Assembly (NCBI GenBank): GCA_027011025.1
Contig: JALVAU010000065.1
Coordinates: 1-11,983, forward strand
Reading direction: 5' to 3'
Length of the DNA: 11,983 nucleotides
DNA from: Campylobacteraceae bacterium
GTDB lineage: Bacteria; Campylobacterota; Campylobacteria; Campylobacterales; Sulfurospirillaceae
The position numbers were made by a program, and so were the translations under genes. The notes below the pieces were generated by a model, which made no database searches, had not been told where the DNA came from, and worked only from the letters and a program-made list of their open reading frames with translations. This document shows positions 3,616 through 11,805 of this stretch, piece after piece. Each line of letters starts with the position of its first letter. Within the stretch, counting starts at the first letter, position 1.

Positions 3616-4911
3616 ATGAAAATAGCTATCGTAGAAGATGATATAAATATGAGAAAATCACTAGAATATGCCCTTAAAGAGTATAGAGAGTTTAAAGTGG
3701 TATGCTATAAAAATGCTATAGAAGCCTTGAAAAAGATAGATGATAGCGTCGAGCTAGTTATCACAGATATAAATATGCCCGGTATGGATGGAATTGAATT
3801 TGTAAAAAAGCTAGATAATAGATTTGACATCATTGTGATTACTGGAAATGCTACGCTAAATCGTGCTATTGAGTCGGTTCGATTAGGGGTAAAAGATTTT
3901 TTGACAAAGCCATTTGAGATAGATACATTAGTTGATGCGATCAAGAGAAATGTTAAGATAAGAGCTAAAACTTCAAAAGTAAAAGCTCAACCAAAAGATG
4001 GAAATAGGGATTTTTTAGGAAGTTCAAAAGAGTTAGAAGCTTCATTGTCATTGGCAAAAAAAGCAGCAAGAACAGATGCTAGTGTTTTACTTTTGGGGCA
4101 GAGTGGAGTAGGAAAAGAGCTTTTTGCCAACTATATTCATAAAAATTCCAATAGGGCAAAAAATAAATTTATAGCTATAAATATGGCAGCAATTCCTGAA
4201 AATCTTTTGGAGAGTGAGTTGTTTGGATATGAAAAAGGAGCTTTTACCGATGCTCTTAATGAGAAAAAAGGGTACTTTGAGCTAGCTCACAGGGGCACTA
4301 TATTTCTCGATGAAATAGCGGAGATGTCAGTAGCTCTTCAGAGTAAACTTTTGAGAGTTTTGCAAGAAAGAGTAGTTTATAGGGTAGGGGGATTGAAGCC
4401 TATACCGGTTGATGTCAGGATAATTTCTGCAACAAATGCCGATATTTTAAGAGTTATAAGAGATGGAAAATTTCGGGAGGATTTGTATTTTAGATTAAAT
4501 ACCATTCCTATCAAAATAGCACCTCTTAAAGATAGAAAAGATGAGATTATGCAGATTGCTCAAAAAACTCTCCAAGAGGTAAAGAGCAGGTATGATTTAC
4601 CAAATAGAGTTTTTTCTTCCCAAGCAAAAGAGGCACTTTTAAATTATGATTGGCCAGGAAATATCAGAGAGTTGATATCAGTTGTTCAAAGAGCTGCAAT
4701 TTTAAGTGATAATGAAACCATAAGTACTGAAGATCTATTTTTAGATAGCAGAAGTGTAAACAATATAAATAGTATGGAAAAAGAGTTGATACAAGAGGTG
4801 CTTCAAAGTGTGAATGATAACATAAGTGAAGCTAGTAAGATATTAGGAATGAATAAAAAAGCTCTTTTGAGCAAAATAAAGAAGTATCTAATCAAGAGTA
4901 GCACCAATTAA
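3616..4911 (+). CDS. flgR: sigma-54-dependent response regulator FlgR
   Basis: This 431-residue NtrC-type activator uses ATP hydrolysis to open promoters held by RNA polymerase-sigma-54. In this phylum FlgR, phosphorylated by the kinase FlgS (not in this window), switches on rod, hook and other middle flagellar genes. The receiver domain (1-110) has the acidic Asp8/Asp9, the phospho-acceptor Asp51, Thr76 and Lys98. The AAA+ domain (about 132-365) has Walker A GQSGVGKE (161-168), the sigma-54 contact loop GAFTDA (208-213), Walker B GTIFLDEI (227-234), sensor I around 268-274, FREDLYFRLN with candidate arginine fingers (286-295), and sensor II WPGNIREL (346-353). A Fis-type helix-turn-helix occupies about 402-426. 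Asp replaces the usual second Gly of GAFTGA. Its gap to flgQ is 16 nt, with a weak ribosome site. The last ten codons, including the stop, lie in the left arm of a long palindrome. Confidence 0.92.
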   Translation: MKIAIVEDDINMRKSLEYALKEYREFKVVCYKNAIEALKKIDDSVELVITDINMPGMDGIEFVKKLDNRFDIIVITGNATLNRAIESVRLGVKDFLTKPFEIDTLVDAIKRNVKIRAKTSKVKAQPKDGNRDFLGSSKELEASLSLAKKAARTDASVLLLGQSGVGKELFANYIHKNSNRAKNKFIAINMAAIPENLLESELFGYEKGAFTDALNEKKGYFELAHRGTIFLDEIAEMSVALQSKLLRVLQERVVYRVGGLKPIPVDVRIISATNADILRVIRDGKFREDLYFRLNTIPIKIAPLKDRKDEIMQIAQKTLQEVKSRYDLPNRVFSSQAKEALLNYDWPGNIRELISVVQRAAILSDNETISTEDLFLDSRSVNNINSMEKELIQEVLQSVNDNISEASKILGMNKKALLSKIKKYLIKSSTN

Positions 4912-5045
4912 TAGCACAAAAAGAATGGTGCAAGTACAAGGCAGATTTGTGCAGGACTAGCTGAAGCTAATTCAAACAAATCTAACGCAGTAATTGTGCC
5001 GTTATCTTTGTGTTATTAATTGGTGTTACTCTTGATTAGATACTT
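4882..5045 (+). repeat. 164-nt long palindrome / giant hairpin between flgR and asd
   Basis: Positions 4882-4913 and 5014-5045 are inverted copies differing at one of 32 bases (G4901 against T5026, a G-U pair in RNA). Pairing continues unbroken through 4920/5007, giving 39 consecutive pairs with two G-U. Further in, the arms still pair with scattered mismatches and wobbles (4924-4933 with 4994-5003, then 4935-4937 with 4990-4992). After an internal loop, AGATTTGT (4943-4950) pairs with ACAAATCT (4976-4983). The tip GGACTAGC-TGAA-GCTAATTC (4954-4973) closes on a TGAA tetraloop. Symmetry stops sharply at 4881/5046, and no target-site duplication is visible. There is no T-run after it, so it is not a standard intrinsic terminator. 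It could be an RNase III substrate, an operon insulator, a MITE-like element or an inverted duplication. Confidence 0.9.
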
Positions 5046-5048
5046 AAG

Positions 5049-5061
5049 TATAATATTGAGG
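5049..5061 (+). promoter_or_regulatory. candidate -10 box and ribosome site before asd
   Basis: A perfect TATAAT lies at 5049-5054, just outside the right arm of the long palindrome, with no clear -35 box (normal for this phylum). The ribosome site GAGG at 5058-5061 is 7 nt from the asd ATG. Initiation 6-8 nt after the -10 box would give a leader of about 8 nt and cut into that ribosome site. The box may therefore be a chance match in AT-rich DNA, or may serve a near-leaderless transcript. Confidence 0.3.
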
Positions 5062-5068
5062 TAGGATA

Positions 5069-6094
5069 ATGAGAAAGTATAATGTAGCCATAGCAGGTGC
5101 TACAGGAGCAGTTGGCGAAGAGTTATGTAGAGTTTTGGAAGATTTGAATTTTCCAGTAGGAAATCTTTTTCCACTAGCAAGTGCAAAAAGTGTTGGTTTG
5201 GATGTAGAGTTTAGAGGAAAAAATTATAAAGTTTTAGAACTTACCGAAACTGTTTTTGAAGAAAATGAGATTGACATAGCTTTTTTTAGTGCAGGAGGAA
5301 GTGTGTCAGCTAAATTTGCTCCATTTGCAGCAGAGGCCGGAGCAGTAGTCATAGACAATACAAGCCATTTTAGGATGGATAGAGATGTACCTTTGGTAGT
5401 TCCTGAGTGCAACCCAAACGATATATGCGAGTGGAAAAACAGAGGAATAATAGCAAATCCAAACTGCTCAACCATACAGATGGTACAAATTTTAAAGCCA
5501 CTTGATGATGCTTTTGACATCAAAAGAGTTGATGTGAGTACTTATCAAGCAGTAAGTGGAGCAGGAAAAGAGGGGATGGCAGAGCTTGTTAATCAAATGC
5601 AAGATTTTTTTGCTTTCAAGTTAGATGAGAGTAAAGTAGAAAAATTTCAGCATAGAATTGCACTAAATGTTATACCACATATCGATGTCTTTGGAGATAA
5701 TGACTACACAAAAGAAGAGATGAAAATGGTCAATGAGACACAAAAGATTCTTCATAAAGATGTAGAAGTAAGTGCTACATGTGTGCGAGTTCCGATACTC
5801 AGAAGCCATAGTGAAGCTATAACTATACATTTTGCAGATTCAGTTGATGCTAATCGTGCTAGAGATATTTTAAGTAGTGCACCTAGCGTGGTAGTTGTTG
5901 ATGAGCCTAGTAAAAATGAGTATCCTATGCCTATCATCTCAACAGATACAGATGAGACTTATGTGGGACGAATTAGAAAAGATATATATAGAGACAATGT
6001 GCTTCATCTCTGGTGTTGTGCCGATCAGATAAGAGTTGGAGCTGCTACAAATGCAGTAAGGATTGCTCTAAAATGGATAGAAACAGAGGGGTAG
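5069..6094 (+). CDS. asd: aspartate-semialdehyde dehydrogenase
   Basis: This enzyme reduces L-aspartyl-4-phosphate with NADPH to L-aspartate 4-semialdehyde, the branch point to lysine/diaminopimelate (and so peptidoglycan), threonine and methionine. At 341 residues it has the usual bacterial length. The N-terminal Rossmann fold carries GATGAVGEE (10-18). The catalytic Cys133 sits in NPNCSTIQ, Gln160 in the conserved QAVSGAG stretch (160-166), and Arg240, Arg245 and the catalytic His247 in RVPILRSHSEA. It is the first gene of a compact run with the UPF0114 protein (1 nt gap), hemE and a radical SAM gene. In C. jejuni asd also follows flgR, but here the long palindrome separates them, so the two may be transcribed separately. 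Identification is secure. Confidence 0.97.
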   Translation: MRKYNVAIAGATGAVGEELCRVLEDLNFPVGNLFPLASAKSVGLDVEFRGKNYKVLELTETVFEENEIDIAFFSAGGSVSAKFAPFAAEAGAVVIDNTSHFRMDRDVPLVVPECNPNDICEWKNRGIIANPNCSTIQMVQILKPLDDAFDIKRVDVSTYQAVSGAGKEGMAELVNQMQDFFAFKLDESKVEKFQHRIALNVIPHIDVFGDNDYTKEEMKMVNETQKILHKDVEVSATCVRVPILRSHSEAITIHFADSVDANRARDILSSAPSVVVVDEPSKNEYPMPIISTDTDETYVGRIRKDIYRDNVLHLWCCADQIRVGAATNAVRIALKWIETEG

Positions 6095-8569: not shown

Positions 8570-10741
8570 TTAAGCCAAAGCTTTTTGCTTTTTGACTTTT
8601 GCTTTTTGAATTAGATATACACTTGCATACAGTGCAACACCGATCACATAAGATACATAATGAGATGGAAAATCTAAATGTGTCGCCATTAATTTTGGAA
8701 GCATCATAAATGGTATCAATGTTAACAGCAATAATCTCTCTATAGTGTTTACCTTAGTTAGCATAAATCCCTGAGTTGCAGAGGTAAATGCGAACATACC
8801 AGCAACAGCTCCGATAAATATAATAGCAATTTCAGCAGGATTGGATATCCAAACCCATTTAGATGCGTCATTTGGGTCTGCAGGGTCAACGCTCTCTATC
8901 ATCAAAAGGTTATTGTTGAAAAAGAACATAAATGGTAGTATCGCAGTTCTTATATCATAGAAAAATCCTTGTAATCCTGTCTTAATCGGATCCGCTTTTG
9001 CTATTCCGGCTGCGGCATATGCCGCTAGTCCCACAGGTGGCGTATCATCCGCTAGAATACCAAAGTAGAATACAAACATGTGAGCTGCTATCATAGGTAT
9101 GACATAGCCATTTTGATTAGCAAGTTGCATGATAACAGGAGCTGTCAATGAAGCCATAACGATATAGTTTGCTGTTGTTGGAAGCCCCATACCAAGTATC
9201 AGTGATGTGATGGCAGTAAATAGGAGTACAAGTATGATATATCCATGTGAAAGTTGATCGATAACATCAGATAGAATCAAACCGATTCCAGTTAGCGTAA
9301 CCGAACCAACTATGATACCGGCAACACCGGTAGCTATCGCAATTGGAACCATACTCTTAGCACCGTTTACCATTCCCCAGCCTATATCTGTAAAACCTTG
9401 GATAAATACACCTTTGGTTAATTTCTCTTTTTTCATAAGAGCTGCTATCGGTCTTTGTGTTATCATGATGAGCATCATAAACATGATGGCATTAAATGCT
9501 GCACTCTGAGCAGAATGTCTAAGAATAATCAAAGTGTACATCAAAAAGAAAATAGGTATGATATAGTGAATACCTCTGATAAATAGAGGCCAAGCTTTTT
9601 GAAGTTTACTTGGGTCTTCACCTTTTAGCCCCTGTTTTTTGGCTTCTAAGTGAACTATATAAAATAGTGCAAAATAACTAGTAAATGCTGGTACAAACGC
9701 TGCAAAGACTATCTCTGTATAGTTTAGTCCCAAAAATTCAGCCATGATAAATGCGGCGGCTCCCATGATAGGAGGCATCAGTTGTCCATTGACTGATGAG
9801 GCAACTTCTACCGCACCTGCTTTATGGGCAGGGAAGCCCAACCTTTTCATTAGAGGAATTGTAAATGTTCCTGTTGTTACAGTATTTGCTATAGATGAAC
9901 CAGATATGATTCCCATCATTCCAGAAGCTGCAACTGAAGCTTTTGCCGGCCCACCGTCATATTTTCCAAGTAGTGTATATGCTAGATTTATAAAGTATTC
10001 ACCAGCACCCGCCCTATCAAGCAAGGCTCCAAAGAGAACAAATAAAAATACATAACTAGCACTAACACCAAGTGGCACACCAAATATACCCTCAGTTGTC
10101 AACACCATTTGTCCCATAAGTTTACTTACACTTGCGCCTTTATGGGCGATTAGGTCTGGCATATATGGTCCAAATATGTCATATATTATAAATATAACTG
10201 ATATCAGAGGCAGTGGAAGCCCCATAACACGCCTAGCACCCTCGAGAACTATAATACAGACTAAAACACCGACTACAACATCAGTTTGCGTCCAAGCGCC
10301 TGAGCGCATAGCAAGATTTGTGTATTCGTACCATTTGTATAGAACAACTACTATACCAACGATAGCAAAGGCAAAATCGTACCAAGTTATTTTTTTTCTT
10401 AAATTTACAGTTTTAAATATAGGATAAACAGTGTATGCGAGTATTACAGCAAATGCTAGATGTCCAGCTCTTGCAAAGACACTATTTATAGGATTTATAA
10501 CTATATACATCTGAAATGCTGACCAAGTAAAAGCGATTACCGCTATAAACCAATATTGCCAAGTGCCATCTGGAAATATTCTCTGCCCTTCAAGCTCACT
10601 TATGAGCTTCTCCTCATCTTCTACATCAACAGGAATCGGTGGAACCTCTTCTTTTAGATGTGATAGATTATCTAGTGCCTCTTCGTTATCTTTTTCGATC
10701 TCTTCAAGGTACTCTTTATTCATTTGGCCATGTTTCTTCAA
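8570..10741 (-). CDS. TRAP transporter fused permease (DctQ-DctM type)
   Basis: This 723-residue inner-membrane protein fuses the small (DctQ-like) and large (DctM-like) TRAP subunits, the arrangement normally paired with TAXI binding proteins. It takes up an organic solute, probably driven by an ion gradient such as Na+. A hydrophilic, acidic N-terminus (1-60) precedes the small-subunit helices (about 62-190). The large part has the family's hairpin motifs GSSIANTVTTGTFTIP (281-296), GMGLPTTANYIVMASLTAP (517-535) and GILADDTPPVGLAAYA (561-576). The tail is lysine-rich and encoded by repeated AAAAGC-like units. The start is TTG at 10741, set by a strong GGAGG 6 nt upstream; the next ATG (10723) is 24 nt from that site. 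It lies 116 nt downstream of the TAXI gene. The substrate cannot be told from sequence. Confidence 0.93.
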   Translation of the reverse strand: MKKHGQMNKEYLEEIEKDNEEALDNLSHLKEEVPPIPVDVEDEEKLISELEGQRIFPDGTWQYWFIAVIAFTWSAFQMYIVINPINSVFARAGHLAFAVILAYTVYPIFKTVNLRKKITWYDFAFAIVGIVVVLYKWYEYTNLAMRSGAWTQTDVVVGVLVCIIVLEGARRVMGLPLPLISVIFIIYDIFGPYMPDLIAHKGASVSKLMGQMVLTTEGIFGVPLGVSASYVFLFVLFGALLDRAGAGEYFINLAYTLLGKYDGGPAKASVAASGMMGIISGSSIANTVTTGTFTIPLMKRLGFPAHKAGAVEVASSVNGQLMPPIMGAAAFIMAEFLGLNYTEIVFAAFVPAFTSYFALFYIVHLEAKKQGLKGEDPSKLQKAWPLFIRGIHYIIPIFFLMYTLIILRHSAQSAAFNAIMFMMLIMITQRPIAALMKKEKLTKGVFIQGFTDIGWGMVNGAKSMVPIAIATGVAGIIVGSVTLTGIGLILSDVIDQLSHGYIILVLLFTAITSLILGMGLPTTANYIVMASLTAPVIMQLANQNGYVIPMIAAHMFVFYFGILADDTPPVGLAAYAAAGIAKADPIKTGLQGFFYDIRTAILPFMFFFNNNLLMIESVDPADPNDASKWVWISNPAEIAIIFIGAVAGMFAFTSATQGFMLTKVNTIERLLLLTLIPFMMLPKLMATHLDFPSHYVSYVIGVALYASVYLIQKAKVKKQKALA

Positions 10742-10752
10742 CCTTTACCTCC
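10739..10752 (-). promoter_or_regulatory. strong ribosome site deciding a TTG start
   Basis: On the minus strand GGAGG (10752-10748) is followed by six bases and then TTG (10741-10739). This is the best Shine-Dalgarno sequence in the window and is well placed for TTG, not for the first ATG at 10723. A strong ribosome site with a weak start codon may set a low but steady permease level relative to the binding protein. Confidence 0.7.
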
Positions 10753-10763
10753 TAATTTATACA

Positions 10764-10806
10764 GGGTATTTCCAAACACTAATAAAATTAAGATTTAGAA
10801 ATACCC
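10764..10806 (-). repeat. inverted repeat near the permease start
   Basis: GGGTATTTC at 10764-10772 and GAAATACCC at 10798-10806 form a perfect 9-bp inverted repeat around a 25-nt AT-rich loop. In the minus-strand transcript it ends 12 nt before the permease ribosome site. It forms a tandem pair with the stem-loop at 10816-10845 and could affect mRNA stability or permease translation. Confidence 0.5.
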
Positions 10807-10815
10807 CTTTTTATG

Positions 10816-10845
10816 TTTGAAGCCCTAGTGTTTTAGGGCTTCAAA
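10816..10845 (-). repeat. intercistronic stem-loop after the TAXI gene
   Basis: A perfect 12-bp stem (10816-10827 with 10834-10845) with a 6-nt loop begins about 12 nt after the TAXI stop codon. No T-run follows on the minus strand, so full termination is unlikely. Binding-protein transporter operons often use such structures to protect the upstream message and make far more binding protein than permease. That role is inferred. Confidence 0.65.
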
Positions 10846-10857
10846 TGTAACAAGTTA

Positions 10858-11805
10858 CTATAAAATACCTGCTTCTTTAAATGCTTTTACAGCACCTGGA
10901 TGTTGAGGGATACTCAAACCATCAAGAAGGCTTTTTTTAGTAATTGTTTTATAAGCTGGGTGAAGCTTTTTGAAAGCTGCAAAATTGTCTAGGATAGTTT
11001 TTACTACAGTATAGACAACTTTATCACTAGTTTTTGCACTAGTAACCAAAACAGCTTTTACACCGATACTTGGAGTATCATGAGTAACACCTTTGTAGAA
11101 TGTTCCAGAAATGATACCTTTTGCATAGTAAGGGTATTTTTTAACTAGCATATCAACTGGTTTTCCTTCGATTGGAATCAAGTCAATATCAACTGAGTTA
11201 GCAGCATCTTTGATATTTGCTGTTGGGTGACCAAATACTGCAAAATAACCATCTACATGATCATCTTTAAGTAGTGTTGGGCCTTCACTTGAACTTAACT
11301 CATCAATTTGTTTTAAATCAGAGTGTTTGATACCAAACGCTTTAAGAACTATTTCAGTAGTCATTCTAGTTCCTGAGCCCGGGGTGTCTATGTTAACACG
11401 CTTACCTTTTACATCCATCAAAGTTTTGATGCCAGATCTTTTAGCAACTACAAATGAAAGCAATTCAGGATAGATAGCCATAGTACTTCTTAACTCTTTT
11501 ATAGCCTTACCTTTGAATTTGCCTATACCATTGTATGCTTGATATGCAGTATCACTTTGTGAAATACCAAAATCAAGCTCACCTTGATGAATAGTATTTA
11601 CATTGTATACTGAACCACCAGTTGACTCAACAGAACATCTGATGCCTGTTTTTTTCTTTTGCTTGTTTACCATTCGGCAAATTGCTCCACCAGTCGGATA
11701 GTAAACACCTGTAACACCACCGGTTCCGATAGTGATAAATTGCGCTGCAAATGCAGGAAGACTCAAAGCACCAGCTAACGCTATAGTAGCAAGTTTTTTG
11801 TTCAT
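10858..11805 (-). CDS. TAXI-family TRAP transporter solute-binding protein
   Basis: This 315-residue periplasmic protein binds the substrate and delivers it to the fused permease encoded next. A typical Sec signal peptide (MNKKLATIALAGALSLPAFA, cleavage near Ala20 or Ala21) precedes the TAXI hallmark IGTGGVTGVYYPTGGAI (26-42). STGGSVYNV (61-69), ELDFGISQSD (76-85) and RVNIDTPGSGTR (136-147) also match the family. Cys43 and Cys57 are the only cysteines of the mature protein and could form a disulfide in the periplasm. The start is supported by AAGGAG (11816-11811), 5 nt before the ATG. It is the first gene of the minus-strand operon. The family includes glutamate/glutamine binders, but the ligand here is not predictable. 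Confidence 0.95.
   Translation of the reverse strand: MNKKLATIALAGALSLPAFAAQFITIGTGGVTGVYYPTGGAICRMVNKQKKKTGIRCSVESTGGSVYNVNTIHQGELDFGISQSDTAYQAYNGIGKFKGKAIKELRSTMAIYPELLSFVVAKRSGIKTLMDVKGKRVNIDTPGSGTRMTTEIVLKAFGIKHSDLKQIDELSSSEGPTLLKDDHVDGYFAVFGHPTANIKDAANSVDIDLIPIEGKPVDMLVKKYPYYAKGIISGTFYKGVTHDTPSIGVKAVLVTSAKTSDKVVYTVVKTILDNFAAFKKLHPAYKTITKKSLLDGLSIPQHPGAVKAFKEAGIL

Follow-up and report, generated by a model that had tools for sequence, protein, structure and literature searches.

The window analysed here, a stretch of 11,983 nt from the draft genome of a Campylobacteraceae bacterium (contig JALVAU010000065.1), contains flgR (3616-4911), whose product carries sigma-54 activator domains, followed by asd, which starts at position 5069. 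Across the 3' end of flgR and most of the gap between the two genes lies a palindrome of 164 bp (4882-5045), the longest among the inverted repeats listed for the window. Folding of the segment 4870-5060 with RNAfold gives -88.3 kcal/mol, against a mean of -35.1 for shuffled sequences (sd 3.96, z -13.4), none of 200 of which reach the native energy. The two 56-bp arms (4882-4937 and 4990-5045) are held together by 48 Watson-Crick pairs, with five G-T pairs, one A-C and two other mismatches. An earlier, sequence-only reading of this DNA had placed the palindrome correctly, and its 39 outer pairs (4882-4920) do run without interruption, the two G-T pairs among them being 4901-5026 and 4914-5013. 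The TGAA tip and the alternative pairing of GCACCA with TGGTGC are likewise seen in the sequence, and the absence of a terminator T-run agrees with a count of zero terminator-like sites at this copy. That the palindrome takes up the whole flgR-asd gap is true only in part: it includes the flgR 3' end but stops at 5045, 23 nt 5' of the asd ATG (5069). Elsewhere in the window, the minus strand of 8570-11805 holds two large frames (723 and 315 aa) that by eye resemble a TRAP transporter membrane subunit and a TAXI-type binding protein.

The palindrome as a whole (4882-5045, with no strand assigned) is delimited by its inverted repeat, its fold, its copies in the genome and the empty junction in relatives, and can be divided as follows, all parts being given on the plus strand. 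The left terminal inverted repeat (4882-4914) is the 5' half of a 33-bp outer stem and a variant of the end type we call F1, beginning AAGTATCTAATCA; it pairs with the right terminal inverted repeat, the 3' half of that stem (5013-5045), and is of a type common to other copies. Between the two lies a single hairpin arm of type A (4915-5012), which is matched by our covariance model R1 at 4916-5011 with an E-value of 1.6e-17. Inside this arm, an internal loop is formed by AAGGC (4938-4942), in columns that are invariant or nearly so in the type A alignment (A1), and by AACGCAG (4984-4990), conserved in the same alignment. The conserved tip AGGACTAGC-TGAA-GCTAATTCAA (4953-4975; tip motif 4956-4975) comprises an AGG/TCAA loop and a covarying tip helix. 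The right border reads TA (5045-5046), as is common in the flanks of type F1 copies, and the left border (4881-4882) reads GA.

Comparison with relatives shows that this element is an insertion. The last nine codons of flgR (KYLIKSSTN) and its stop codon (4882-4911, plus strand) are supplied by the palindrome, and flgR has a different 3' end in related genomes. The palindrome is absent from all seven genomes of the genus whose junction could be read (G001, G002, G003, G005, G006, G008 and G009; loci L022-L028), and in these loci the flgR 3' end reaches or overlaps the asd start codon; G004 and G007, with no usable asd, fall outside the comparison. The insertion ended the flgR-asd overlap seen in relatives, against which the window shows a 157-nt gap with a strong hairpin, and left a very stable hairpin upstream of asd. 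The FlgR regulator itself is probably little affected, because the HTH_8 match extends no further than residue 424 of 431. The sequence-only reading named an unrelated, unpaired spacer in relatives and a single-copy element among the findings that would count against its view; the relatives' junction is indeed unpaired and different, but the element is multi-copy.

A BLAST search with 4870-5060 against the draft genome of the window (G000) gave 30 matches on 17 contigs, its own site included; several of them cover the core or one end only, and some are located at the ends of contigs. The tip motif ACTAGC-N2-8-GCTAATTCAA occurs 19 times in this genome (reversed control, 0), and 14 of these occurrences form seven plus/minus pairs spaced 102-103 bp apart. 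A complete element can be read from such pairs: it measures approximately 265-272 bp and consists of a 33-bp outer stem formed by the ends, a first arm of ~97 nt, the nine-base joint CCCnnnGGG and a second, inverted arm, the arms being imperfect hairpins of ~95-99 nt. The window copy retains both ends and one arm. Further one-armed copies were found (L051, L078, L080, L089, L118 and L178), as were armless palindromes of 50-60 bp, and one-ended remnants are common among the copies inspected.

This geometry holds in a set of 105 non-redundant palindromic copies from loci L001-L227, to which the window's family contributed 28 and wider genome contigs 77; the set was drawn up after removal of duplicates, tip matches within 60/80 nt of a locus end and inverted repeats scoring below 14. 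Seventy-five copies are 255-300 bp long, and 69 of these contain CCCnnnGGG; in 60 of the 75 the distance from the start to the tip is 72-76 nt. Another 13 of the 105 measure 140-190 bp. When length is defined by the terminal repeats, it peaks at 268 bp for end type F1 (6/16 copies), 266 for F3 (9/13), 266-269 for F2 (9/10) and 265 for F6 (12/19). Elements of this size, and of the 240-277 bp found in 18 of 20 further copies (see below), contain no transposase gene. L125, where two tip motifs stand 1.9 kb apart around a helicase-like gene, proved on inspection to be the site of two separate, complete elements, and by eye L112, L137 and L166 look like chance matches to the tip pattern. Among the options put forward in the sequence-only reading, the MITE-like element is the one that fits, given the matches on 17 contigs, the empty site in relatives, the terminal inverted repeats and the target duplications of a sister family described below; its interpretation of the palindrome is in this sense partly supported.

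Some loci show more intricate arrangements. In L097, L147 and L148, from Candidatus Thiodiazotropha, elements lie side by side within a few hundred bases, suggesting insertion near or into one another, and at approximately 420-590 of L051 a one-armed element with TTACTCC-type ends appears by eye to sit inside what is left of a GGGCACC-type element. L152, L183 and L197 share a 26-bp insert with GGTAAAACTCCGCAACGAAGTGAGGACAA in the same arm. One-ended remnants comprising ~12-20 nt of terminal repeat occur near apparent gene starts in L290, L295, L300, L307 and others (single-contig genomes, by eye), and may be deletion scars or excision footprints. In genome G205 (L301, L303, L304, L305 and L306), the GGGCACCTCTAAA end belongs to a longer repeat, of the form ...CAAAATATCTATA-GGGCACCTCTAAA..., that is present in several copies.

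The family extends well beyond the window's genus. An exact search of genome contigs for the tip recovered at least 114 stretches, and those among the matches listed come from Sulfurovum, Sulfurimonas, Nitratifractor, Sulfurospirillum and other Campylobacterales, as well as from Gammaproteobacteria such as Candidatus Thiodiazotropha. Covariance model R1, which describes the type A arm, finds matches in 47 of 298 genomes and 20 of 58 genera of the window's phylum, and in 66 of 274 genomes of the class to which the Thiodiazotropha genome G068 belongs; these counts are lower bounds, because the strict filters used lose weak matches. Twenty copies taken from 12 of those 66 genomes comprise 18 two-arm elements and two one-armed ones (L319 and L328, the latter by eye). 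We considered viral spread and set it aside: the exact tip motif is absent from the viral contigs searched, and the GC-rich copy L320 has no match in phage records. Against plasmids, L320 gave one 64-nt partial match to a Halomonas record and the copy in L010 gave none.

What persists across this range is a fold. We collected 138 arms, dropped seven outside the range of 93-100 nt and reduced the remaining 131 to 40 clusters with one representative each, 24 of type A with the AAGGC/AACGNNG loop (alignment A1) and 16 of type B, mostly with GTRAGAT/AGATTGCC (A2). Helix sequences vary among copies while pairing, helix lengths and loop motifs are kept. In type A arms, 34 of 37 pairs have changed on both sides, 94.8% of cells are paired compared with 61.4% after shuffling, and covariation stands at 0.887 compared with 0.237, a value reached by none of 500 shuffles; in type B arms, both-side changes are seen in 35 of 41 pairs, and 94.4% of cells are paired compared with 67.6%. 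Shifting the partner by one to three columns lowers pairing to 34-55%. The alignments were made with MAFFT independently of structure, but since the structure was predicted from the same alignments and the copies are related, these shuffle controls are to be read as indicative and not as a probability. The AAGGC/AACGNNG and AGG/TCAA loops, the CCCnnnGGG joint and the helix lengths are all retained, both in AT-rich Campylobacterota and in the GC-rich genomes of the Thiodiazotropha class.

The sequence-only reading had taken the G-U wobbles of the window copy as a sign that an RNA fold is kept, and a strand test of the 69 two-arm copies (the six of 75 without CCCnnnGGG being left out) upholds this only in part. 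Non-Watson-Crick pairs of the outer stem show no clear strand preference (G-T 50, A-C 37). Read on one and the same strand, arm 1 has 82 G-T and 14 A-C pairs and arm 2 has 9 and 97, so that wobbles are favoured on each arm's own strand. Because this bias comes mainly from arm positions 13-16 (G-T 168, A-C 2 in 138 arms; G-T 37, A-C 20 at positions 0-12), we claim no general RNA signature. The conserved wobbles argue for a folded single strand, whether of RNA or of ssDNA.

The most serious alternative is that the arms are transcribed and act as a structured RNA, be it a small RNA, an RNase III substrate or a protein-binding RNA, and that mobility is only the means by which such a gene has spread. 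Strong covariation, conserved loops and the fixed own-strand wobbles of positions 13-16 would all be expected of such a gene, and the Correia/NEMIS MITEs are described as acting at the RNA level in the available part of PMC10969869. However, the two arms lie on opposite strands, so that any transcript would contain one of them in sense orientation and the other in antisense, and the outer stem lacks a clear wobble bias. No Rfam match reached the gathering score in nine sources, and a search of five loci at E<=1 returned two Rfam matches, neither of them on an element; a known RNA family can on these searches be set aside. The window copy, moreover, has no terminator-like site and no excess of promoters (2 found, 1.5 expected). 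We regard this explanation as possible but rather unlikely. Separately, a sub-threshold TPP riboswitch match, clipped by the end of the locus, was seen at 1-86 of L144 (48.8 bits compared with a gathering score of 54.3).

Covariation could also arise in a plain MITE palindrome with no functional core, in which the terminal repeats pair and the palindrome is corrected by template switching during replication. Template switching can equalise the arms of a palindrome, mimicking compensatory change without selection, which counts against a structure-selected core, and the near strand-neutrality of the outer stem speaks for a plain palindrome. Correction of this kind would nevertheless erase internal loops, and yet AAGGC/AACGNNG, AGG/TCAA, CCCnnnGGG and the helix lengths persist, which leaves this explanation with little probability. 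We also considered an integron attC site, whose paired core sites follow the consensus RYYYAAC ... GTTRRRY; YAAC is common on the 3' side of the arm, but the opposing 5' side is AAGGC and not GTTRRRY (A1, by eye), and this candidate was rejected.

In contrast to the core, the ends of the elements fall into several unrelated types, and similar arms are found with different ends. Type F6, with ACCTGAG ends, is flanked by a 5-bp duplication TNNNA in 14 of 19 copies, where shuffled flanks predict 2.0, and type F3, with GGGCACC ends, by a 4-bp duplication in 5 of 13 (2.1 expected), a weak signal. The 16 F1 copies have T and A in 13 and 15 cases at the left flank and in 15 and 13 at the right; identical flanking dinucleotides, seen in 10 of 16, lie at the shuffle expectation of 9.8 because TA is nearly fixed, and the corresponding figures are 4 of 10 for F2 (4.9 expected) and 2 of 7 for type G (2.8). 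These counts cover copies with typed end patterns, which excludes the window copy, ending AGTATC. The statement in the sequence-only reading that there is no target-site duplication is accurate for the window copy, which has GA at its left flank, TA at its right one and no visible duplication, and does not extend to the sister family F6, in which duplications are clear. According to the available part of PMC2170065, in vitro products of an IS630-family element are sometimes irregular: in 3 of 39, one side has TA and the opposite side a lone A.

Pairwise comparison of the 69 two-arm copies identified 96 arm pairs that are at least 80% identical while their terminal repeats are less than 60% identical, although many of these pairs are non-independent and the end measure is generous, the better of two alignments being scored for ends that are short and AT-rich. 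L008 and L125 share 96% and 86% identity in their arms, while their ends, AAGTATCTGACC... and CCTAGTACCGTTCACGC..., reach 59% on the generous measure and are by eye unrelated except for an inner TTTAA; L146 and L165 have one arm 85% identical and ends 41% identical. In our view, the core has persisted while the ends around it were exchanged.

To ask what moves the element, we searched for a transposon that shares its ends. Inverted pairs of ends 0.8-3 kb apart were not seen by eye for F1 in 10 genus genomes, for F6 in eight genomes, for F3 in five single-contig genomes or, among the matches listed, for the gammaproteobacterial type G in seven genomes. DDE_3 genes (PF13358) are present in four of 13 carriers searched and in none of the five genus genomes searched; with the F1 pairs of 10 genomes and the DDE_3 genes of these five as the material, no transposase sharing the window's type of terminal repeat was found. 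A partner can be proposed for a different end type. In genome G074, locus L343 contains a decayed element of ~1.4 kb with ends GTACTCCGACAA / GTACTCCATCAA, lying between CTA and TAG, whose coding part is split over separate frames, one of which matches DDE_3. Across eight DDE_3 loci, both such ends were found only in L343; L340 has one, L338 has one reading like an element end and the other five have none. Gammaproteobacterial copies of the GTACTCC end type begin GTACTCCKTCAA, and L120, L148 and L178 lie between CTA and TAG, L139 (also in G074) having other flanks. From the ~12 end bases that this one decayed copy shares with the GTACTCC type, we infer an IS630-type partner for that end type in Gammaproteobacteria.

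The mover might instead be a Y1 (RAYT) transposase with the folded arms as its recognition site, which would make the family REP- or REPIN-like. The inverted pair of strand-specific imperfect hairpins recalls such elements, and Y1_Tnp genes (PF01797) were found in 39 of 44 family genomes. Two of the carriers, G000 and G004, which are incomplete drafts (92.1% and 90% complete), gave no PF01797 match, however, while the other genus genomes, non-carriers included, have it, and on this ground RAYT was set aside as the mover. The 5-bp duplications of F6 are also not expected of IS200/IS605-type enzymes, and the arm base is paired. By eye, alignments A1 and A2 show neither a GTAG nor a CGTC foot left unpaired; GTAG as a string is seen inside some tips. 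We therefore hold a REP-like origin to be decidedly improbable. Finally, an insulator or attenuator that evolved locally between flgR and asd, an idea of the sequence-only reading that draws on the position and stability of the hairpin, is scarcely credible, since a local insulating function is unsupported for an interspersed repeat that is missing from all seven readable same-genus relatives and has related pieces on 16 other contigs.

We consider it likely that the palindrome came in by insertion and represents an internally shortened copy from a MITE-like, non-autonomous superfamily that depends on transposases and has a structure-selected core. The full element is an inverted pair of units, each a terminal repeat of ~33 bp with an arm of ~95-99 nt, joined by CCCnnnGGG, and DDE transposases of more than one family would move it in trans by way of the terminal repeats. 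What preserves the arms may be their folding as single strands, each arm on its own strand, in a form that a putative protein or process would read; selection would then be the cause of the maintenance of the fold. Whether the folded form is ssDNA, during replication or transposition, or RNA is close to evenly balanced, and we lean slightly towards ssDNA. The window copy would have lost CCCnnnGGG and its second arm by deletion at the helix junction. More tentatively, and with rather less than even confidence, we propose that the two-armed core is a mobile 'chassis', shared by Campylobacterota and Gammaproteobacteria in conserved form and selected apart from any one transposase, which repeatedly gains new terminal repeats and so parasitises several transposase families, its arms being read as ssDNA or RNA by a putative conserved factor.

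Bacterial MITEs are usually seen as the collapsed remains of one insertion sequence. Titles and abstract openings in the literature, mostly outside subscription papers, contained no description of the present element. As far as the available text of PMC2229807 goes, the elements that it lists measure ~100-200 bp and have contiguous terminal repeats of 4-24 bp; like the present element, the bacterial MITEs Correia/NEMIS, ERIC and RUP are short and non-autonomous with terminal inverted repeats and 5'-TA-3' ends, and their transcripts form long stem-loops (PMC2229807, PMC10969869, in the portions available). TA is the target of these MITEs, and RUP is linked to IS630-Spn1. Unlike them, the element reported here has an outer stem of ~33 bp, two inverted arms with conserved loops, CCCnnnGGG, several unrelated end types and a range spanning two phyla. 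The CIR elements of Caulobacter and Brucella, in the accessible description (PMC2229807), resemble it in having two linker-joined arms and a phylogenetically conserved structure, but are set apart by that description in lacking an outer stem in which the ends pair with each other. By these descriptions, neither the TA-flanked MITEs nor CIR bring together ends that pair, two strand-specific arms and several types of end. REPINs and the GTAG and CGTC REPs, which go with RAYT or TIRYT, are likewise inverted pairs of imperfect hairpins, and RAYT genes can carry flanking terminal inverted repeats (PMC3733652, available part; RAYT-like enzymes are also covered in the accessible part of PMC6006769). 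REPs are, however, 20-40 bp long with a GTAG or CGTC tag, whereas the arms described here measure ~95-99 nt and carry different motifs, and 5-bp duplications are seen in one family. The likeness to IS630/Tc1-mariner elements, for which a TA duplication is reported in the available part of PMC2170065, lies in the TA or CTAG flanks and in the GTACTCC ends common to the decayed DDE_3 element; in contrast to them, the present element has no internal transposase, and its F6 type has 5-bp duplications.

Overall, a branched fold whose helix lengths and loop motifs are fixed has been kept across two phyla, while the sequences of its helices and its ends change. Covariance model R1 can be used to annotate such intergenic repeats, including those that fall at the ends of contigs in the draft genome G000. 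If the core is indeed selected, it would point to a new recognition factor and to a way in which non-autonomous elements may outlive their transposase.
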